Below are positions 9,475-55,691 of a stretch of 64,000 bases of DNA, piece by piece (the first letter of the stretch is position 1; every line of letters starts with the position of its first letter). The stretch is from contig NZ_FCNV02000013.1 in NCBI RefSeq assembly GCF_001544615.1, forward strand, positions 62,001 to 126,000, written 5' to 3'. The stretch comes from Caballeronia concitans (GTDB taxonomy: Bacteria > Pseudomonadota > Gammaproteobacteria > Burkholderiales > Burkholderiaceae). Made by a program: the position numbers and the translations under genes. A model generated the notes under the pieces. It made no database searches. It had not been told where the DNA came from and saw only the letters and a program-made list of their open reading frames with translations.

Positions 9475-9863
9475 CTGACGACGAACGTTACGAAGCCGGC
9501 ATGAAGGTGCGCCGCGCGGTGCTGTCCGACGCGCACGTGGACCGGTCGCTTGCGAATCGCACGGAATTGACGACCGAGTTTCAGAACTTCATCACGCGCT
9601 ATGCGTGGGGCGAGATCTGGACGCGCGACGGCTTGCCGCGCCATACGCGCAGCCTCATCACGATCGCGATGATGGTCGCGCTGAACCGCAGCGAGGAACT
9701 CGCGCTGCACTTGCGCGCCGCGAAGAACAACGGCGTCACGCAGGACGAGATCAAGGAAGTGCTGATGCAAACGGCCGTTTATTGCGGCGTGCCGGCGGCG
9801 AACTCGGCGTTTCACTTGGCGCAGAAGATATTCGACGAGGAAAGCAAGGCGGGCGGGCAGTAA
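9471..9863 (+). CDS. pcaC: 4-carboxymuconolactone decarboxylase
   Basis: At 130 residues this is the normal length for PcaC of the AhpD-like/CMD family. It decarboxylates gamma-carboxymuconolactone to the enol-lactone. Family sequences include RYAWGEIWTRDGLP (about 43-56) and ALHLRAAKNNGVT with the histidine near residue 80. It is the last gene of pcaIJFBDC and is followed by a terminator. The ring-cleaving dioxygenase pcaGH and transporter pcaK are not in the window, so the upper steps are encoded elsewhere. Confidence 0.95.
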   Translation: MTDDERYEAGMKVRRAVLSDAHVDRSLANRTELTTEFQNFITRYAWGEIWTRDGLPRHTRSLITIAMMVALNRSEELALHLRAAKNNGVTQDEIKEVLMQTAVYCGVPAANSAFHLAQKIFDEESKAGGQ

Positions 9864-9887
9864 GCGCGCGTTTTTGTTTTCTTATGG

Positions 9888-9925
9888 AAAGCCGTCGCCC
9901 GGAATTCCGGCGGCGGCTTTTTCCT
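9888..9925 (+). terminator. Intrinsic terminator of the pca operon
   Basis: A long GC-rich hairpin (AAAGCCGTCGCCCGG with CCGGCGGCGGCTTT, loop AATT) is followed by a T run, 24 bases after the pcaC stop. It can also serve the convergent DUF3443 gene. Confidence 0.75.
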
Positions 9926-9927
9926 TT

Positions 9928-11238
9928 CTAGAACGCGTAGTACGGTCCATTGCCCGCGGGCGTGGCGCGTCCTTCCAGCGCGGTGAACACGCGCCTGCCG
10001 TAGAAGAACGGCAATCCCCAGTCGAAGAAACCGTTCGCGGGCCCGGCCAGATTGTTGAACGCGTAATTGCCGCTCGCGAATAGCGCCGTCGATTTCGCGA
10101 CGCTGAACGAAACGTCCGCGGTGACGCCTGTCGTCGAGCTGAGCGTCGCGCTCAACGCCTGCGTCGTCGCGGGGCAAAACCACACGCCGCATGCCGTGAG
10201 CGTCGCCGATGGAAAGAACAGGCCGTTCGATCCGCTGTCGATGAAGCTCGATCCGTACTGGCTGCCGGAGAAGCTCGTCGAGACGTAGCCGGTGACCGAG
10301 TTCGACTTCAGCACGGTTGCGTCGCCGAGCACATTGTTTGCCTGCGATCCGATGCCGAAGGTCATCGTTCCCGTCACCGTCGAAGCGCCTTCCGGCGGCA
10401 CCGCCGGCAATTCGATCAGCACGCCGTTGTTGTCGGATGCGAAGCGCGAGACCGGATTCGTCACCTGCTGCGCGACCGCGAGCGCGCTCGCCGAGCAGGC
10501 GCCCGGGGTGCAGCTGTAATACCAGCGCGGCATCGCCGAATTCGCGCAGCCGGCGCCGCAATCGGCGATGAACGGGCCGACGCCCAGGATGCCGTTGCCG
10601 CGCAGCTTCGTGGTGTCGAGCATCGGCAGGCCCGATTGCGCGCAATCGGCGGCCGCGCCGGGCACGGCGGAATCCGCGATCAACTGAACCGACGTCGCGC
10701 TGGCGACCTGACCGGCGAGGCGGACGTCGGCCTGTCGCACCGCGCCCCACGTGTAGCCCGAGCCGAACACCGCGCACTCCGCCATCGCGGTATTGGTCGC
10801 GTTGCCGGCGACGAGCGGCAGCGCCATCGACGGATTCAGCGCCGAAGCGAGAATGCGCAGCCCTTGCGAGCCGGTATCGACCTGAATGTTGTCGATCGTC
10901 TGGCACGTATCGGTGCCGGGAATGCACAGCGTGACGCTCGTTTGCAGCATGTTGCGCGTGCCGCTCGCGATGCCGGCGATGCGGATCGGCTGCACGTTGG
11001 GCGTCGTCGACTGCACGACGACGTTGCTGGCCGGCGCGGGAAGGCTCGCGGTGGAACTCGCGGCGGCGGGAGCGCTTGCTGCCGACGGCGTGCTCGCCGC
11101 CGCCGGCGCGCTGGTTGCCGCCGGCGCGCTGGCGGGCGCGGGGCTGGCGCTGGTGCTCGAACTGCCGCCGCCGCCGCATCCGTGAAGCAGAGTGCAAAGC
11201 GCGACTGCCGAAAGAGAAAGAAGGGCGCGGATCGTCAT
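9928..11238 (-). CDS. DUF3443 lipoprotein with pepsin-like aspartic protease landmarks
   Basis: A 436-residue exported protein. Residues 1-20 are a signal peptide ending in the lipobox LLHGC (lipid-bearing Cys21), followed by an Ala/Ser/Pro linker to about residue 75. I recognise DUF3443 from the sequence style and the DUF2844 neighbour. The folded part carries VDTGSQGLRIL (Asp121) and FIDSGSNGLFF (Asp334), the two active-site motifs of a bilobal aspartic protease. A flap-like FGSGYTWGAV lies at 158-167, GILGVGP at 216-222 and a pepsin-like C-terminal strand GLPFFYGRRVFTALEG near 408. Besides the lipobox, ten cysteines suggest disulfides. The start at 11238 gives a proper signal peptide; upstream in-frame codons do not. 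Activity is inferred, not known to me. Confidence 0.88.
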   Translation of the reverse strand: MTIRALLSLSAVALCTLLHGCGGGGSSSTSASPAPASAPAATSAPAAASTPSAASAPAAASSTASLPAPASNVVVQSTTPNVQPIRIAGIASGTRNMLQTSVTLCIPGTDTCQTIDNIQVDTGSQGLRILASALNPSMALPLVAGNATNTAMAECAVFGSGYTWGAVRQADVRLAGQVASATSVQLIADSAVPGAAADCAQSGLPMLDTTKLRGNGILGVGPFIADCGAGCANSAMPRWYYSCTPGACSASALAVAQQVTNPVSRFASDNNGVLIELPAVPPEGASTVTGTMTFGIGSQANNVLGDATVLKSNSVTGYVSTSFSGSQYGSSFIDSGSNGLFFPSATLTACGVWFCPATTQALSATLSSTTGVTADVSFSVAKSTALFASGNYAFNNLAGPANGFFDWGLPFFYGRRVFTALEGRATPAGNGPYYAF

Positions 11239-11254
11239 GTCTGGTCTCCCGCGC

Positions 11255-11716
11255 TCACTGAATATCCGCAGCCGTGACGCCCGGCGGCAGCGCCGTTGCG
11301 AGCCACGCGCGGCCGCTGAACTCGCGCAGCCGCGTGCGGTTTTCGACGAAGAGATCGCCATCCGCGACGCGCGCCGTGTGCAGGCCCCCATTGCCCGCCG
11401 ATGCGTTCGCGCCATTCCTGAAGCGCTGGAAGTACGCGCCGAGCAGCGTCTGCACGTCGGGCATCGCGGGGCCGCGCCAGGACACGGCGTAGACGGTGCC
11501 GGTCGAATCCACGTACTGCCTCACGACGATGCCGTTCGCATCGGTCGTCTCGCGGTAAGTCGCAAGCCCGCTTTCCGACCGCCGCACGACCGCGCCATCG
11601 GATGCATCCGCTGCGCGCGCTGTCGCGCCGAGTTGTGCGTGGCAAAGCGGACATGCGCCGAGCAATGCGATCATGACGGCCCGAAACAGATACTGAGGAT
11701 GTCTTATGTTCTTCAC
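11255..11716 (-). CDS. DUF2844 exported protein
   Basis: This 153-residue protein has an N-terminal signal peptide (AVMIALLGACPLCHAQ, likely cut after residue 27) and a mature part of about 125 residues with TYRETTDANGIVVRQYVDS and AVSWRGPAMPDVQTLLG, features of DUF2844. It ends 16 bases before the DUF3443 lipoprotein on the same strand, and the two form one transcription unit. No catalytic motif is visible, so it could be a partner, substrate or inhibitor of the DUF3443 protein. A 14-base palindrome lies just upstream. Confidence 0.87.
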   Translation of the reverse strand: MKNIRHPQYLFRAVMIALLGACPLCHAQLGATARAADASDGAVVRRSESGLATYRETTDANGIVVRQYVDSTGTVYAVSWRGPAMPDVQTLLGAYFQRFRNGANASAGNGGLHTARVADGDLFVENRTRLREFSGRAWLATALPPGVTAADIQ

Positions 11717-11736
11717 TGCGTTCCCTCCGACTTTAT

Positions 11737-11750
11737 TAGGAGTGTTCCTA
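11737..11750. promoter_or_regulatory. Palindrome upstream of the DUF2844-DUF3443 genes
   Basis: TAGGA-GTGT-TCCTA is a perfect inverted repeat 21-34 bases upstream of the DUF2844 start codon, in a position to act as an operator. A related sequence (AAGAGTATTCCTA) occurs near 1672-1685. The binding protein is unknown. Confidence 0.35.
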
Positions 11751-12138
11751 TTTTTGAGATCGGATTTTAGGATGAATGCGAGGCCGGGCGATACGGGTAA
11801 GCCAAAGCGGTGAAGAACGCCGTGAGAAGTGAAGATGTGCCTTTAAAACAAGGTGTTGCGCGAACCGGGACGGCATTTCGTCGATTTACGTGAATGTCAT
11901 AAATTGTCAAAGTGCGCGAAAAGCGGTGCAATTATCGATTGAGCGGCGCATGGCGATCGTTGCCGAATCGATCCCAAGCTGCGGCGAGCCAGTCGCCCGT
12001 CATCGACGATTGATCGCGCGCAGCGTTCGGACGCGCGACCCGCCGATGCCTCTTTTTGCACGGCTGTCCGCCGGACCGGTAAAATGCTGGGTTGATCCAC
12101 GGACGAACGCCGTGGCGTAGCGGAAGGACTTTCCAGAC
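11751..12138. other. Intergenic region before bamC
   Basis: About 390 bases between the divergent DUF2844 gene and bamC. It holds a candidate bamC promoter near its right end. I see no gene: the only ORFs are short, Arg/Ser-rich frames with no ribosome site. In many proteobacteria dapA sits directly before bamC; it is absent here. Confidence 0.6.
12056..12085 (+). promoter_or_regulatory. Predicted bamC promoter
   Basis: TTGCAC (12056-12061) and TAAAAT (12080-12085) are 18 bases apart. Transcription would start about 45 bases before the bamC ATG. Confidence 0.55.
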
Positions 12139-13350
12139 ATGACAGATTTTCGTGTGACCAAGCGGGTGGCTGCGCTCTTCACGGTGGCCGGTATCGTGGC
12201 GGGATGCGGCACGTCTTCTCCCACCGCGATCAATTACAAGAGCGACCAGCGCTCGAAGCAGTCGTCGCTCGCCATTCCGCCAAACCTGCTCGACGAAGCG
12301 GGCGATCAGCGTTCGCTGCCGCCGCAAAGCGGGCAGGCATCCCTCTCCGATCTCCAGCAGGTCCGGAAAGTCGCGCCCGATGCGCCGACCGTCGTGCCGC
12401 CCGTCTCGGGCATGCACATCCAGCGTGACGGCGCGGAACGGTGGCTCGTCATCGACGGCAAGGCGCCGGATCAGGTCTGGCCGCAAATCCGCCGTTTCTG
12501 GCAGGAGCAGGGCTTCCTGCTCGTCGTCGATTCGCGCGACAAGGGCGTGATGGAAACGGACTGGAACGAAACGCATCCGCAGATTTCGGACGGCCTGATC
12601 CGCGACACGCTCGCCAAGGCCACCGGCAATTCGTATGTCACGGCCGAGCGCAACAAGTACCGCACGCGTCTCGAAGCGGCGCCTAGCGGCGGCACCTACG
12701 TGTTCATCAGTCAGAAGGGCATGCGCGAGGCGCTGACCGGCATCAACAACGATACGAGCCAGTGGCAGGCGCGCCCCAACGATCCCGCGCTGGAAAACGA
12801 ATACCTGAAGCGGCTGATGTCGTCGCTTGCCTTGGCGGATACGCGGCAGGCGTCGGGCGTCGCCGGCTCGTCGGACGCGGGCGCGCAAGCGGCGAACGCG
12901 AGCGCACAGCCGGCCAAGAGCGGCGATTCGAAAGCCGCCACTGTGGCTGCGCAAAACGCGGCGAACGCAGGCAACAGCGCGATCCGGAACGAATCGGTGC
13001 CGGAGGCGGCATCGGCGCAGTTGACGCTGCCCGAGGCGTATGACCGCGCGTGGCTGCGCGTGGGCATCGCGCTGGATCGCGCGAGCTTCACCGTGGACGA
13101 TCGCGACCGCGCGCGCGGCGTGTATTACGTGCGCTACGTGGATCCGAACGACAAATCGGCGCGCGAACAAGGCTTCTGGAGCCAGGTCTTCCACGGCCGC
13201 AAGGAAATCATCGCGAAACAGTATCAAGTCAACGTCCGCGCGATCACGGAAGCCCAGACGCGCGTTGCTATCGTCAATGACAAGGGCGAAGTCGATTCTT
13301 CACCGCAGGCGCGTCAGATCATGGCGCTGCTCGCCGACCAGATCAGCTAA
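12139..13350 (+). CDS. bamC: Outer-membrane assembly lipoprotein BamC
   Basis: BamC (NlpB) is a lipoprotein subunit of the BAM complex, which inserts beta-barrel proteins in the outer membrane. The 403-residue protein has a signal peptide and lipobox (VAGIVAGC, Cys23), then an unstructured N-terminal stretch that in known BamC binds BamD (INYKSDQRSKQSSLAIPPNL). Two helix-grip domains follow, around residues 90-210 and 290-400, separated by an Ala/Ser-rich linker (about 235-290). Unusually, dapA is not upstream. A terminator follows. Confidence 0.93.
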   Translation: MTDFRVTKRVAALFTVAGIVAGCGTSSPTAINYKSDQRSKQSSLAIPPNLLDEAGDQRSLPPQSGQASLSDLQQVRKVAPDAPTVVPPVSGMHIQRDGAERWLVIDGKAPDQVWPQIRRFWQEQGFLLVVDSRDKGVMETDWNETHPQISDGLIRDTLAKATGNSYVTAERNKYRTRLEAAPSGGTYVFISQKGMREALTGINNDTSQWQARPNDPALENEYLKRLMSSLALADTRQASGVAGSSDAGAQAANASAQPAKSGDSKAATVAAQNAANAGNSAIRNESVPEAASAQLTLPEAYDRAWLRVGIALDRASFTVDDRDRARGVYYVRYVDPNDKSAREQGFWSQVFHGRKEIIAKQYQVNVRAITEAQTRVAIVNDKGEVDSSPQARQIMALLADQIS

Positions 13351-53570: not shown

Positions 53571-55691
53571 TTAGAAGCTCTCGTTCGGAGCGAGATAGCG
53601 CCACTGTCCGGGCGGCAGCGCGCCGAGCGTCACGCGCCCCATGCGGATGCGCTTGAGCCCGACCACGTCCAGCCCGACCAGTTCGCACATGCGGCGAATC
53701 TGGCGCTTCTTGCCTTCGCGCAGCACGAAGCGAAGCTGTTCGCCGTTCTGCCAACTGACTTGCGCGGTCTTGAGCGGCACGCCGTCGAGTTCGAGGCCGT
53801 GCCGCAAGAGCGCGAGCTTTTCCTCGGGGAAGCGCCGGTCGATATCGACGGTATGCTCGCCGTACTGCACGCGCACGAGGTACTCCTTGTCGACTTCGGA
53901 ATGGCCGCCGATCAGTTGCTTCGCGATGCGGCCGTCCTGCGTCAGAACCAGCAAGCCGGTCGAATCGATGTCGAGACGGCCGGCCGGCGCGAGCGTGCGC
54001 AGATGCCCCGGCGCGAAGCGGATGCCGGAGCGGTCTTCGTCCCAATGATTCGCCGGATTGACGAGCGTGACGGCCGGCTCGTAGCCGTCCTCGGCCTGAC
54101 CGGATACATAGCCGACGGGCTTGTGCAGCAGGATGGTGACGAGTTGCGACTGCGCGGAATGCGCGGCCGGCAGGACCTCGATGTTCTGGCCGGGACGGAT
54201 GCGCGTGCCGAGTGTGTCCATGACTTCGCCATCGACGAGCACCCAGCCTTTCTCGATCCATTCGTCGGCTTCGCGGCGCGAGCACAGGCCGAGTTCCGAC
54301 ATGACTTTCGACAGGCGCACCAGGCCGTCGTGATGCGGGCGGGGTTTGGCTTCGGGTTCGGCGATTGGCGCGGCGTGATTGAGCTCGTCGCTGCGTGGCT
54401 TGGCGGGGCGGTGGTCGTCGGTGCGTTGTTTGAACGGACGTCGTTCATCATCACGCGGGCCTCGATTGCCTGCGCGGGAATCGTCGCCGCGCGGTTTGAA
54501 CGGACGCCGTTCCTCACCACGCGGGCCGCGATCGCCTGTGCGCGAATCGTCGCCGCGTGATTGAAACGGGCGTCGGTCATCGCTGCGCGGCGGGCGGTCG
54601 CCAAACGACGGGCGCGAATCGTCGCCACGTGGCTTAAATGGGCGTCGATCATCACCGCGCGGACCGCGATCACCGAAAGACGGGCGTGAATCGTCGCCGC
54701 GCGGTTTGAACGAGCGCCGGTCGTCGCTGCGCGGGGCGCGATCGCCGAAAGACGGGCGCGGGTTGTCACCACGCGGCTTGAAGGAACGCCGCTCCTCGTC
54801 ACGCGGACCGCGATCGCCAAAAGACGGACGCGAATCGTCGCCGCGCGGTTTGAACGAGCGCCGGTCGTCGGTGCGTGGGCCTCGGTCGCCAAAAGACGGA
54901 CGCGAATCGTCGCCGCGCGGTTTGAACGGGCGTCGGTCGTCGGTGCGCGGACCGCGATCGCCAAACGACGAACGCGAATCTTCACCACGCGGCTTGAACG
55001 AACGTCGATCATCACCACGCGGACTGCGATCGCCTGTGCGTGAATCGTCGCCGCGCGGTTTGAACGAGCGCCGGTCGTCGCTGCGCGGACCGCGATCGCC
55101 AAAAGACGGACGCGAATCGTCGCCGCGCGGTTTGAACGAGCGCCGTTCGTCGCTACGCGGACCGCGATCGCCAAACGACGGACGCGAATCTTCACCACGC
55201 GGTTTGAACGAGCGCCGCTCCTCACCACGCGGACCACGATCGCCAAACGACGAACGCGAATCTTCACCACGCGGTTTAAACGGGCGTCGATCATCACCAC
55301 GCGGACCGCGATCGCCAAACGACGGGCGGGAATCGTCTCCGCGCGGTTTGAACGAGCGCCGTTCGTCGCTACGCGGACCACGATCCCCAAAAGACGGACG
55401 CGAATCATCCCCACGCGGTTTGAACGGACGCCGCTCCTCACCACGCGGACCGCGATCCGCAGACGAAGCTCGCGAATCATCTCCGCGCGACTTGAAAGAA
55501 CGCCGTTCCCCCGGCGCGTCTGCGCGCTTCGGGGCCGTCGCCCGCGCTTGCTCAGGCTTGCCGCGCTTGACCAGGGCCTCCTCCGGCGCGTTGTCGCGCA
55601 CGGGCTTGCGGCTGATGGAACTGCCGGAACGCACCGGCGAACGCGTCGTCGATGTCGGACGCGGATGTTTGGCTGTCAGTTTGACGCGCAT
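53571..55691 (-). CDS. 23S rRNA-type pseudouridine synthase (RsuA/RluB/RluF family) with repeat array
   Basis: The 706-residue protein has its enzyme in the last 250 residues: an S4 RNA-binding domain (VRLSKVMSELGLCSRREADE, from about residue 457) and the RsuA-type catalytic site AGRLDIDSTGLLVL, with Asp as nucleophile. KKRQIRRMCELVG follows. LLHKPVGYVSG suggests the RluF/RluB branch, so it makes pseudouridine in 23S rRNA. Residues about 63-436 are 15-16 imperfect repeats of 24 residues (some 20-22), rich in Arg, Asp and Ser, for example RRSFKPRGDDSRPSFGDRGP. Such an extension is absent from E. coli homologues and probably binds RNA. Confidence 0.9.
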   Translation of the reverse strand: MRVKLTAKHPRPTSTTRSPVRSGSSISRKPVRDNAPEEALVKRGKPEQARATAPKRADAPGERRSFKSRGDDSRASSADRGPRGEERRPFKPRGDDSRPSFGDRGPRSDERRSFKPRGDDSRPSFGDRGPRGDDRRPFKPRGEDSRSSFGDRGPRGEERRSFKPRGEDSRPSFGDRGPRSDERRSFKPRGDDSRPSFGDRGPRSDDRRSFKPRGDDSRTGDRSPRGDDRRSFKPRGEDSRSSFGDRGPRTDDRRPFKPRGDDSRPSFGDRGPRTDDRRSFKPRGDDSRPSFGDRGPRDEERRSFKPRGDNPRPSFGDRAPRSDDRRSFKPRGDDSRPSFGDRGPRGDDRRPFKPRGDDSRPSFGDRPPRSDDRRPFQSRGDDSRTGDRGPRGEERRPFKPRGDDSRAGNRGPRDDERRPFKQRTDDHRPAKPRSDELNHAAPIAEPEAKPRPHHDGLVRLSKVMSELGLCSRREADEWIEKGWVLVDGEVMDTLGTRIRPGQNIEVLPAAHSAQSQLVTILLHKPVGYVSGQAEDGYEPAVTLVNPANHWDEDRSGIRFAPGHLRTLAPAGRLDIDSTGLLVLTQDGRIAKQLIGGHSEVDKEYLVRVQYGEHTVDIDRRFPEEKLALLRHGLELDGVPLKTAQVSWQNGEQLRFVLREGKKRQIRRMCELVGLDVVGLKRIRMGRVTLGALPPGQWRYLAPNESF
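54384..55505. repeat. DNA repeat array, unit about 72 bp, within the pseudouridine synthase gene
   Basis: The coding repeats correspond to about 16 imperfect units of 72 bp (a few of 60-66 bp), spanning about 1.1 kb. Unit sequence is close but not identical. Because all lengths are multiples of three, copy changes would preserve the frame. Several other frames are also open across the array. Confidence 0.9.

Follow-up and report, generated by a model that had tools for sequence, protein, structure and literature searches.

Are the lipoproteins of the DUF3443 family aspartic peptidases? The question is raised by a gene on the minus strand of a 64,000-nucleotide stretch of Caballeronia concitans DNA (contig NZ_FCNV02000013.1, positions 62,001 to 126,000; hereafter the window), whose product carries two D-[TS]-G-S motifs and had been likened, in a first-pass annotation made from the sequence alone, to two-lobed pepsin-type aspartic proteases. 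Our analysis indicates that DUF3443 is likely to be a lipid-tethered aspartic peptidase of clan AA, with both lobes in a single chain, and that it is probably nearer to PecA/PE-PGRS_C and to the bacterial two-lobed peptidases than to pepsin. Of the initial proposal, the homology of the first lobe and the presence of two lobes at the level of motif and register were upheld, whereas membership of the pepsin family (A1) was not. The features of the gene are the following.

9928..11238, minus strand: DUF3443 gene, encoding a lipoprotein of 436 residues (P0001; from the translation and the match to Pfam PF11925)
11176..11238, minus strand: presumed signal peptide and lipobox LHGC with the putative lipid-bearing Cys21 (read from the sequence and from the lipoboxes of the family)
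11008..11175, minus strand: linker rich in Gly, Ala, Ser and Pro, residues 22-77, from the lipid anchor to the peptidase-like part (from the sequence; the DUF3443 match begins at residue 78)
10408..11007, minus strand: residues 78-277, taken here as the first lobe (its profile matches that of a two-lobed aspartic peptidase domain from bacteria with a probability of 95.9%, pairwise E 5.2e-9)
10876..10878, minus strand: codon of Asp121 in VDTGS, putatively the first of two catalytic aspartates (the same in all 41 members)
10720..10776, minus strand: residues 155-173, resembling a flap, in which Phe158 takes the position of the flap Tyr (Phe in 40 of 41 members; part of the domain L106 aligns here)
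10582..10590, minus strand: Ile-Leu-Gly 217-219, first hydrophobic-hydrophobic-Gly of the psi-loop (aligned to the GIIG of L012/L106)
9931..10407, minus strand: residues 278-436, taken here as the second lobe (all profile matches weak; 10 of 12 comparisons have Asp334 in register with a catalytic Asp of the template)
10237..10239, minus strand: codon of Asp334 in IDSGS, putatively the other catalytic aspartate (the same in all 41 members)

The identity of the protein as a DUF3443 member, as first annotated, is secure, the Pfam model being matched over residues 78-436 with 448.8 bits against a curated cut-off of 25 (E 1.8e-134). The two motifs are also as described, i.e., VDTGSQGLRIL with Asp121 and FIDSGSNGLFF with Asp334, spaced by 213 residues, and the remaining stretches that had been named as pepsin landmarks were all found, in the order claimed.

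The first lobe is, by profile comparison, homologous to known aspartic peptidase domains, with scores above those of the controls. The DUF3443 model, run over a phylum sample of 398 genomes, yielded 10 genomes above the cut-off and one weak match (E 3.9e-4) within a frame of 4118 residues (L012, the same place as L106), and the domain found there is two-lobed and carries VDTGS, GIIGF and LLDSGA. When this domain of 330 residues (L106) was compared with Pfam, it matched Asp_protease_2 above the cut-off (8.5e-9), gag-asp_proteas (8.6e-6) and DUF3443 (7.1e-5), and more weakly Asp/PF00026 (0.012), PE-PGRS_C (0.018), RVP (0.047) and TAXi_N (0.17); at E<=1 it matched aspartic peptidase-related families and DUF3443 only.

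The profile of DUF3443 aligned with that of the L106-L109/L111 domain family at 93.4% probability and a score of 57.9 (E 2.6e-7; the hhalign E-values are pairwise, not library-wide). The best of 24 control families, which are clusters of reading frames and may contain frames of the wrong strand, reached 19.9, and a score of 12.8 was obtained when the DUF3443 profile was reversed. Restricted to the first lobe, the comparison gave a probability of 95.9% and a score of 59.1 (E 5.2e-9), against 20.1 for the best control. The alignment extends from DTGS to the GILG motif and includes the flap-like stretch. Twelve comparisons of the first lobe were made, eight of which beat every control and four of which did not, and Asp121 fell on the catalytic Asp of the template in nine. 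Lower scores, still above the controls, were obtained for the full profile with PE-PGRS_C-like bacterial proteins (34.5, 23% probability; controls up to 18.4), two-lobed Asp_protease_2 proteins (33.0, 19%; up to 19.0) and group 1 of the bacterial pepsins (27.4, 4%; up to 21.5). As a scale, the six known groups score from 19.8 to 141 against each other, and the L106 family itself matches group 1 of the bacterial pepsins at 92.9%, group 2 at 1.2% and the eukaryotic pepsins at 2.5%. An earlier comparison with a larger, redundant DUF3443 alignment had also placed L012 first (61.8%), with five other profiles at 4.4% or less.

The two aspartates were further analyzed across the family. The set of 95 members combines 80 loci, the best 80 of 483 relatives found with a single pattern that includes Asp121, with 15 proteins from scans with hidden Markov models (HMM; alignment A1). 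Since the search pattern contains Asp121, the conservation of this residue is built in for 80 of the 95 members; the 15 proteins from the HMM scans and the two of L161 are free of this bias, and so are all the Asp334 counts. A non-redundant set of 41 was formed by 39 of the 95 and the two proteins of L161, after dropping members that were more than 80% identical or shorter than 280 residues. Loss of either Asp within the family had been named beforehand as one of two observations that would speak against a peptidase. In fact, Asp121, Thr122, Ser124, Asp334 and Gly336 are invariant in all 41 non-redundant members, and both Asp are invariant in the 15 members from the HMM scans. Among the other motif positions, Gly123 is replaced by Ala in two members, Ser335 by Thr in three and by Ala in one, and Ser337 by Thr in five. 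In the set of 95, Asp121 is present in every member and Asp334 in 94, the only gap being L077, which stops after 114 residues and is among the members left out of the non-redundant set. This copy (locus L077, 94-435) thus has a broken reading frame, and it lies close to a contig end.

Two [VILFM]D[TS]G[STA] motifs separated by 130-270 residues are found in 90 of the 95 DUF3443 frames. No such pair occurs in the 926 other frames with a length of 250 residues or more around the homologues, and 5 of 20,000 shuffles of the window protein contain one. The second motif, FIDSGS, fits the sequence hydrophobic-hydrophobic-Asp-[ST]-Gly-[ST] that, occurring twice, defines A1 according to Rawlings and Bateman (2009; PMC2761423); the first motif mostly has Gln at position -2.

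An independent test with the Pfam model PE-PGRS_C, an aspartyl peptidase-like domain, points in the same direction. Searched against the six frames of the C. concitans genome, it found two places, the better of which is the window protein itself (residues 117-237, E 0.0039). Over the 398 genomes it found 26 places at E<=0.05, and a D[TS]G[AST] motif lies inside the matched stretch in 24 of them (the other two are L203 and L204). DUF3443 proteins account for two of the 26 places (E 7.9e-5 and 0.0039). Conversely, when the 41 DUF3443 members were searched against Pfam, PE-PGRS_C was matched by five (best 1.5e-4) and Asp_protease_2 by three (best 0.012).

The second lobe is less certain than the first, as judged from the profiles. 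Nevertheless, the best local alignment sets Asp334 on the catalytic Asp of the template in 10 of 12 comparisons, and five of the twelve scores (24.0, 19.3, 19.2, 18.8 and 18.8) exceed the best control (17.3), but the one obtained against the L106 family's second lobe is out of register. The lobes of DUF3443 also align with each other, Asp121 falling on Asp334, at a score of 22.96 against control maxima of 18.8 and 17.3. In addition, one member (L020) shows an Asp_protease_2 match inside the second lobe, with E 0.1, at residues 245-299 as numbered after trimming. Weak evidence is to be expected here because the lobes of pepsin have, according to PMC2761423, no sequence similarity outside the psi-loop motifs. 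Two lobes within one chain are supported at the level of motif and register.

A number of observations weigh against this reading. The probabilities of the second-lobe comparisons do not exceed 6.8%, and at least one control scores as high in 7 of the 12. With group 2 of the bacterial pepsins the full-length profile scores 18.7 (0.4%), barely over the controls (18.4), and with the eukaryotic pepsins it remains at background (19.9, 0.7%; one of 24 controls is higher, at 21.3). None of the 41 members matched the A1 model PF00026 at E<=10, in a search in which the HMMER filters discard most weak matches, and neither PF00026 nor PF13650 matched anything in the C. concitans genome at E<=0.001, a negative that is weak for PF00026 because the control genomes gave no match either. 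No aspartic peptidase of the PDB was found at E<=10 with the protein, a close relative or two family alignments or profiles, and no NCBIfam model matched near any cut-off. The membership of the pepsin family that had been suggested for the protein is not borne out by PF00026 or the PDB. The matches to the other peptidase models are weak too: the PE-PGRS_C bits, where seen, are 17.8, 23.5 and 19.0 for a cut-off of 33, the best Asp_protease_2 (PF13650) match has 16.7 bits for a cut-off of 24.3, and in 8 of the 10 DUF3443 genomes the PE-PGRS_C scan gave no match to the DUF3443 protein (one of the eight, G292, was matched through a different protein). Moreover, unrelated models match the 41 members equally weakly, i.e., Rit1_C in eight (at E<=10; best 0.012), which we take as chance shared among close relatives, UCR_UQCRX_QCR9 in one (0.014), DUF7572 in two (0.05) and five others in one each.

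The remaining contrary points concern the active-site motifs. The flap Tyr is replaced by Phe158, as had been noticed, and the motif alignment shows Phe in 40 of the 41 members and Tyr in one. This replacement speaks against a working enzyme. According to Rawlings and Bateman (2009; PMC2761423), no homologue with Phe75 had been shown to be active, although activity persisted, weakened, in a Tyr75Phe mutant. Position -2 of the first Asp motif is occupied by Gln in 70 of 95 members, by Leu in 24 and by Ile in one. The first hydrophobic-hydrophobic-Gly motif is ILG, and the second is imperfect, mostly Asp/Gly-Trp-Gly with Gly408 as its Gly, so that it lacks two hydrophobic residues. The C-terminal GLPFFYGRRVFTAL, which had been likened to the ILGDVF of pepsin, does not rise above background, since its score is reached by 5 of 72 control windows with the bacterial pepsins, by 18 of 72 with the eukaryotic pepsins and by 19-40 of 72 with three other aspartic peptidase groups. 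Finally, the C. concitans genome has a second DUF3443 copy (L002) whose first motif is LDTASFGLR and not VDTGS. DTAS is also found at the first motif of L007. The exchange may be tolerated, or it may point to an altered function.

The placement of the protein outside the cytoplasm rests on the lipobox. A lipobox is present at Cys21 if any residue is allowed at position -2, but LHGC breaks the usual rule for that position. In the family, 78 of 95 members have a lipobox under the usual rule and 91 of 95, including the window protein, when any residue is accepted at -2; the four without one include L025 and L077, whose start is mis-set or broken, and L006, which is trimmed. The ten cysteines reported earlier are those counted after Cys21, and each of them is conserved in 37-41 of the 41 non-redundant members.

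The DUF3443 gene is accompanied by a second gene, which did not form part of the first-pass annotation.

11255..11716, minus strand: DUF2844 gene, encoding an exported-looking partner of 153 residues, 16 bases upstream of the DUF3443 start (Pfam PF11005, E 1.2e-34; adjacency)
11246..11250, minus strand: GGGAG, resembling a ribosome-binding site, between both genes (read from the sequence)

By rule, a DUF2844 gene is located upstream of DUF3443, on the same strand and within 238 bases, in 76 of the 80 loci. In two others (L018 and L019) it is present but overlapped by the assumed DUF3443 start, and in L034 the end of DUF2844 is present before the contig stops; L077 has about 105 bases before the match, with no DUF2844 in them, and is not a testable locus. 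DUF2844 is thus directly upstream of DUF3443 in 79 of 79 testable loci. In the phylum sample, both families exceed their cut-offs in the same 10 of 398 genomes, and the 17 genes found of each kind are all paired. The genome G322 has at least six DUF2844 and at least six DUF3443 genes, forming six pairs; these copy numbers are lower bounds, since the profile scan scored 4 of 7 DUF3443 and 10 of 21 DUF2844 candidates, and two of the DUF3443 genes were identified by reading the surrounding sequence. The distances within the two families are correlated over the 17 pairs (0.62), and for the six pairs of G322 the true combination correlates best out of the 720 possible ones. This pairing shows joint inheritance and duplication, and it is not proof of contact. 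The C-terminus of DUF2844 is, by eye, conserved nearly to the last residues. Searching Pfam with 26 DUF2844 members returned, apart from DUF2844, eleven families, each through a single member (best 0.0056) and none of them informative. In the PDB its profile matched mainly designed repeat proteins (lowest E 9.4e-4), an outcome that we ascribe to composition. No promoter- or terminator-like site was found in positions 9850-12200.

Two further pairs lie in tandem at L161 (2006-6099), in G322, and the second DUF3443 protein of this locus has a long GS/TP repeat linker from the lipobox to the conserved part.

The homology of the first lobe, the invariance of both Asp and the constant pairing with DUF2844 are shown by these data, and from them we infer the two-lobed fold, the catalysis and the role of the partner, and from the lipobox the location. 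We propose that the lipid and the flexible linker would tether DUF3443 either to the cytoplasmic membrane, on its outer face, or at the outer membrane, and that it would act in the periplasm or at the surface. Asp121 of the first lobe and Asp334 of the second would jointly activate a water molecule for the cleavage of a peptide bond, under a flap presumed to carry Phe158 in place of Tyr. In our view DUF2844 would most likely serve as an inhibitor or a folding helper acting in trans, a role proposed because DUF3443, apart from its linker, lacks a prosegment and because DUF2844 looks separately exported and is encoded just before the peptidase gene; for this step alone our confidence falls somewhat short of even. 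More tentatively, the two proteins could constitute an envelope protease system of proteobacteria and acidobacteria in which the obligate partner gates the peptidase as the prosegment of pepsinogen does, only in trans; taken as a whole, this scheme is rather doubtful.

The partner can also be seen in another way, compatible with a peptidase: DUF2844 would be the dedicated substrate of the lipoprotein, which would process it in the envelope. That, in the loci and genomes examined, neither gene is found without the other wherever this could be checked is what an enzyme with one substrate would show, and the pairs have diverged together. However, an inhibitor or a chaperone predicts the same pattern, and no conserved cut site is visible in DUF2844 by eye, so that we give this explanation a low probability. 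Other explanations question the peptidase itself. The protein might have kept the fold for binding and not for cutting, e.g., as a sensor, an inhibitor or a cell-wall or sugar binder comparable to the xylanase-inhibitor relatives. Non-catalytic relatives of the fold are known (PMC2761423; PMC11313796), and the Phe of the flap in 40 of 41 members, the imperfect second psi-loop motif and the DTAS of 2 of 41 would agree with such a pseudo-peptidase. Nevertheless, we regard it as unlikely: both Asp as well as Thr122, Ser124 and Gly336 are invariant in the 41 members, whereas the non-catalytic A1 relatives described in PMC2761423 do not keep the active-site Asp.

It could be argued as well that only the first lobe is of the peptidase type, i.e., a single retropepsin-like lobe followed by an unrelated domain, which would need to dimerise or would be inactive. 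The high-probability matches are indeed limited to the first lobe, a control equals the second lobe in 7 of 12 comparisons, and the C-terminal stretch remains at background. This arrangement is nonetheless distinctly improbable, given that the second motif is invariant, that Asp334 is in register in 10 of 12 comparisons and that the similarity between both lobes exceeds the controls; besides, in pepsins too the two lobes have no similarity of sequence apart from the psi-loop motifs (PMC2761423). A likeness due to chance or convergence, in a protein unrelated to aspartic peptidases, would explain the negative PDB and A1-model searches and the weakness of the Pfam matches, but it is hardly credible in view of a score with the L106 family about three times that of the best of 24 controls, of a whole-genome PE-PGRS_C scan that picks the window gene, and of an L106 domain that matches only aspartic peptidase-related families and DUF3443. 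A lipid-tethered, two-lobed aspartic peptidase is thus the reading that we favor.

Among the known systems, the nearest functional parallel would be PecA. According to PMC6819658, PecA is a surface aspartic protease, active in the processing of other secreted proteins, and the structure of PE_PGRS16 has an aspartic protease fold. The PE-PGRS_C domain (PF20729), C-terminal in PecA/PE_PGRS35 and PE_PGRS16, is like DUF3443 an extracytoplasmic domain of the aspartic peptidase type with a DTG and a DSG motif, PecA being placed in PF20729 by inference because of the name of the model and its 43% identity to PE_PGRS16. DUF3443 differs from these proteins in its conserved cysteines, its DUF2844 partner and the lipobox that it has instead of a PE domain; in fact, the Pfam scan of the window protein found no PE domain, and a lipobox and a linker occupy its N-terminus. 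The bacterial two-lobed Asp_protease_2 domains (PF13650; L106-L109) give the strongest profile match and share DTGS, the flap-like stretch and GILG with DUF3443, but those of the L106 type sit in a very long multidomain frame, whereas DUF3443 is a small lipoprotein. With A1 (pepsin and the shewasins) it shares two D-[TS]-G-[ST] motifs, the flap-like stretch and the first psi-loop motif, and it differs in the absence of a PF00026 match, in the lipobox and in the Phe of the flap. The bacterial A1 homologues lack signal peptides (PMC2761423) and are predicted to be mainly cytoplasmic, as has been shown for shewasin D (PMC4814920). The retropepsins (A2, RVP) belong to the same acid protease superfamily and have the DTG motif; unlike a retropepsin, which has one lobe and dimerises (PMC2761423), DUF3443 has two motifs in one chain.

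The long frames that contain the L106-type domains (L106-L109, L111-L117 and L012) have 3,894-4,118 residues and come from four genomes (G137, G073, G030 and G153). They carry, besides the two-lobed aspartic peptidase domain, a diverged second copy further along the same frame, and in the one piece of L012 that was scanned (1,052 residues) the domain is flanked by cadherin-like, Big_9 and PD40 repeats. The protein of G292 matched by PE-PGRS_C (L186, a frame of 389 residues, from the same bacterial family; E 3.7e-6, below the cut-off) is a different lipoprotein with MDTGSTG and LVDTGVGEM, perhaps belonging to another family of lipid-anchored aspartic peptidases.

The closest named relatives of the window gene, among the best 80 of 483, are mostly from Caballeronia and some from Burkholderia. 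DUF3443 was not found in phages by tblastn, and among 72,556 plasmid records it was matched in five, four of which annotate a DUF3443 family or domain protein and one of which has no feature at that place. The literature searched, mostly without subscription journals, yielded no mention of DUF3443 or DUF2844, and no title on the DUF3443 family was found among the papers on bacterial aspartic peptidases, shewasin, PecA and PE_PGRS16. The extracytoplasmic bacterial aspartic peptidase that we found described is the mycobacterial PecA (PMC6819658). If our proposal is true, there would be a lipid-anchored family in the Burkholderiales and beyond, linked to a partner gene and present in at least six copies in one of the genomes; a testable biochemical activity could then be assigned to two domains whose function is not known, and a further bacterial branch would become available for the study of the origin and regulation of two-lobed pepsins.

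Past the DUF2844 end of the gene pair and on the opposite strand, the window encodes an NlpB/DapX lipoprotein (Lipoprotein_18; 12139-13350, plus strand). Further away (53571-55691, minus strand) there is a pseudouridine synthase with S4 and PseudoU_synth_2 domains, whose long N-terminal extension contains about 14 copies of a 72-base repeat.

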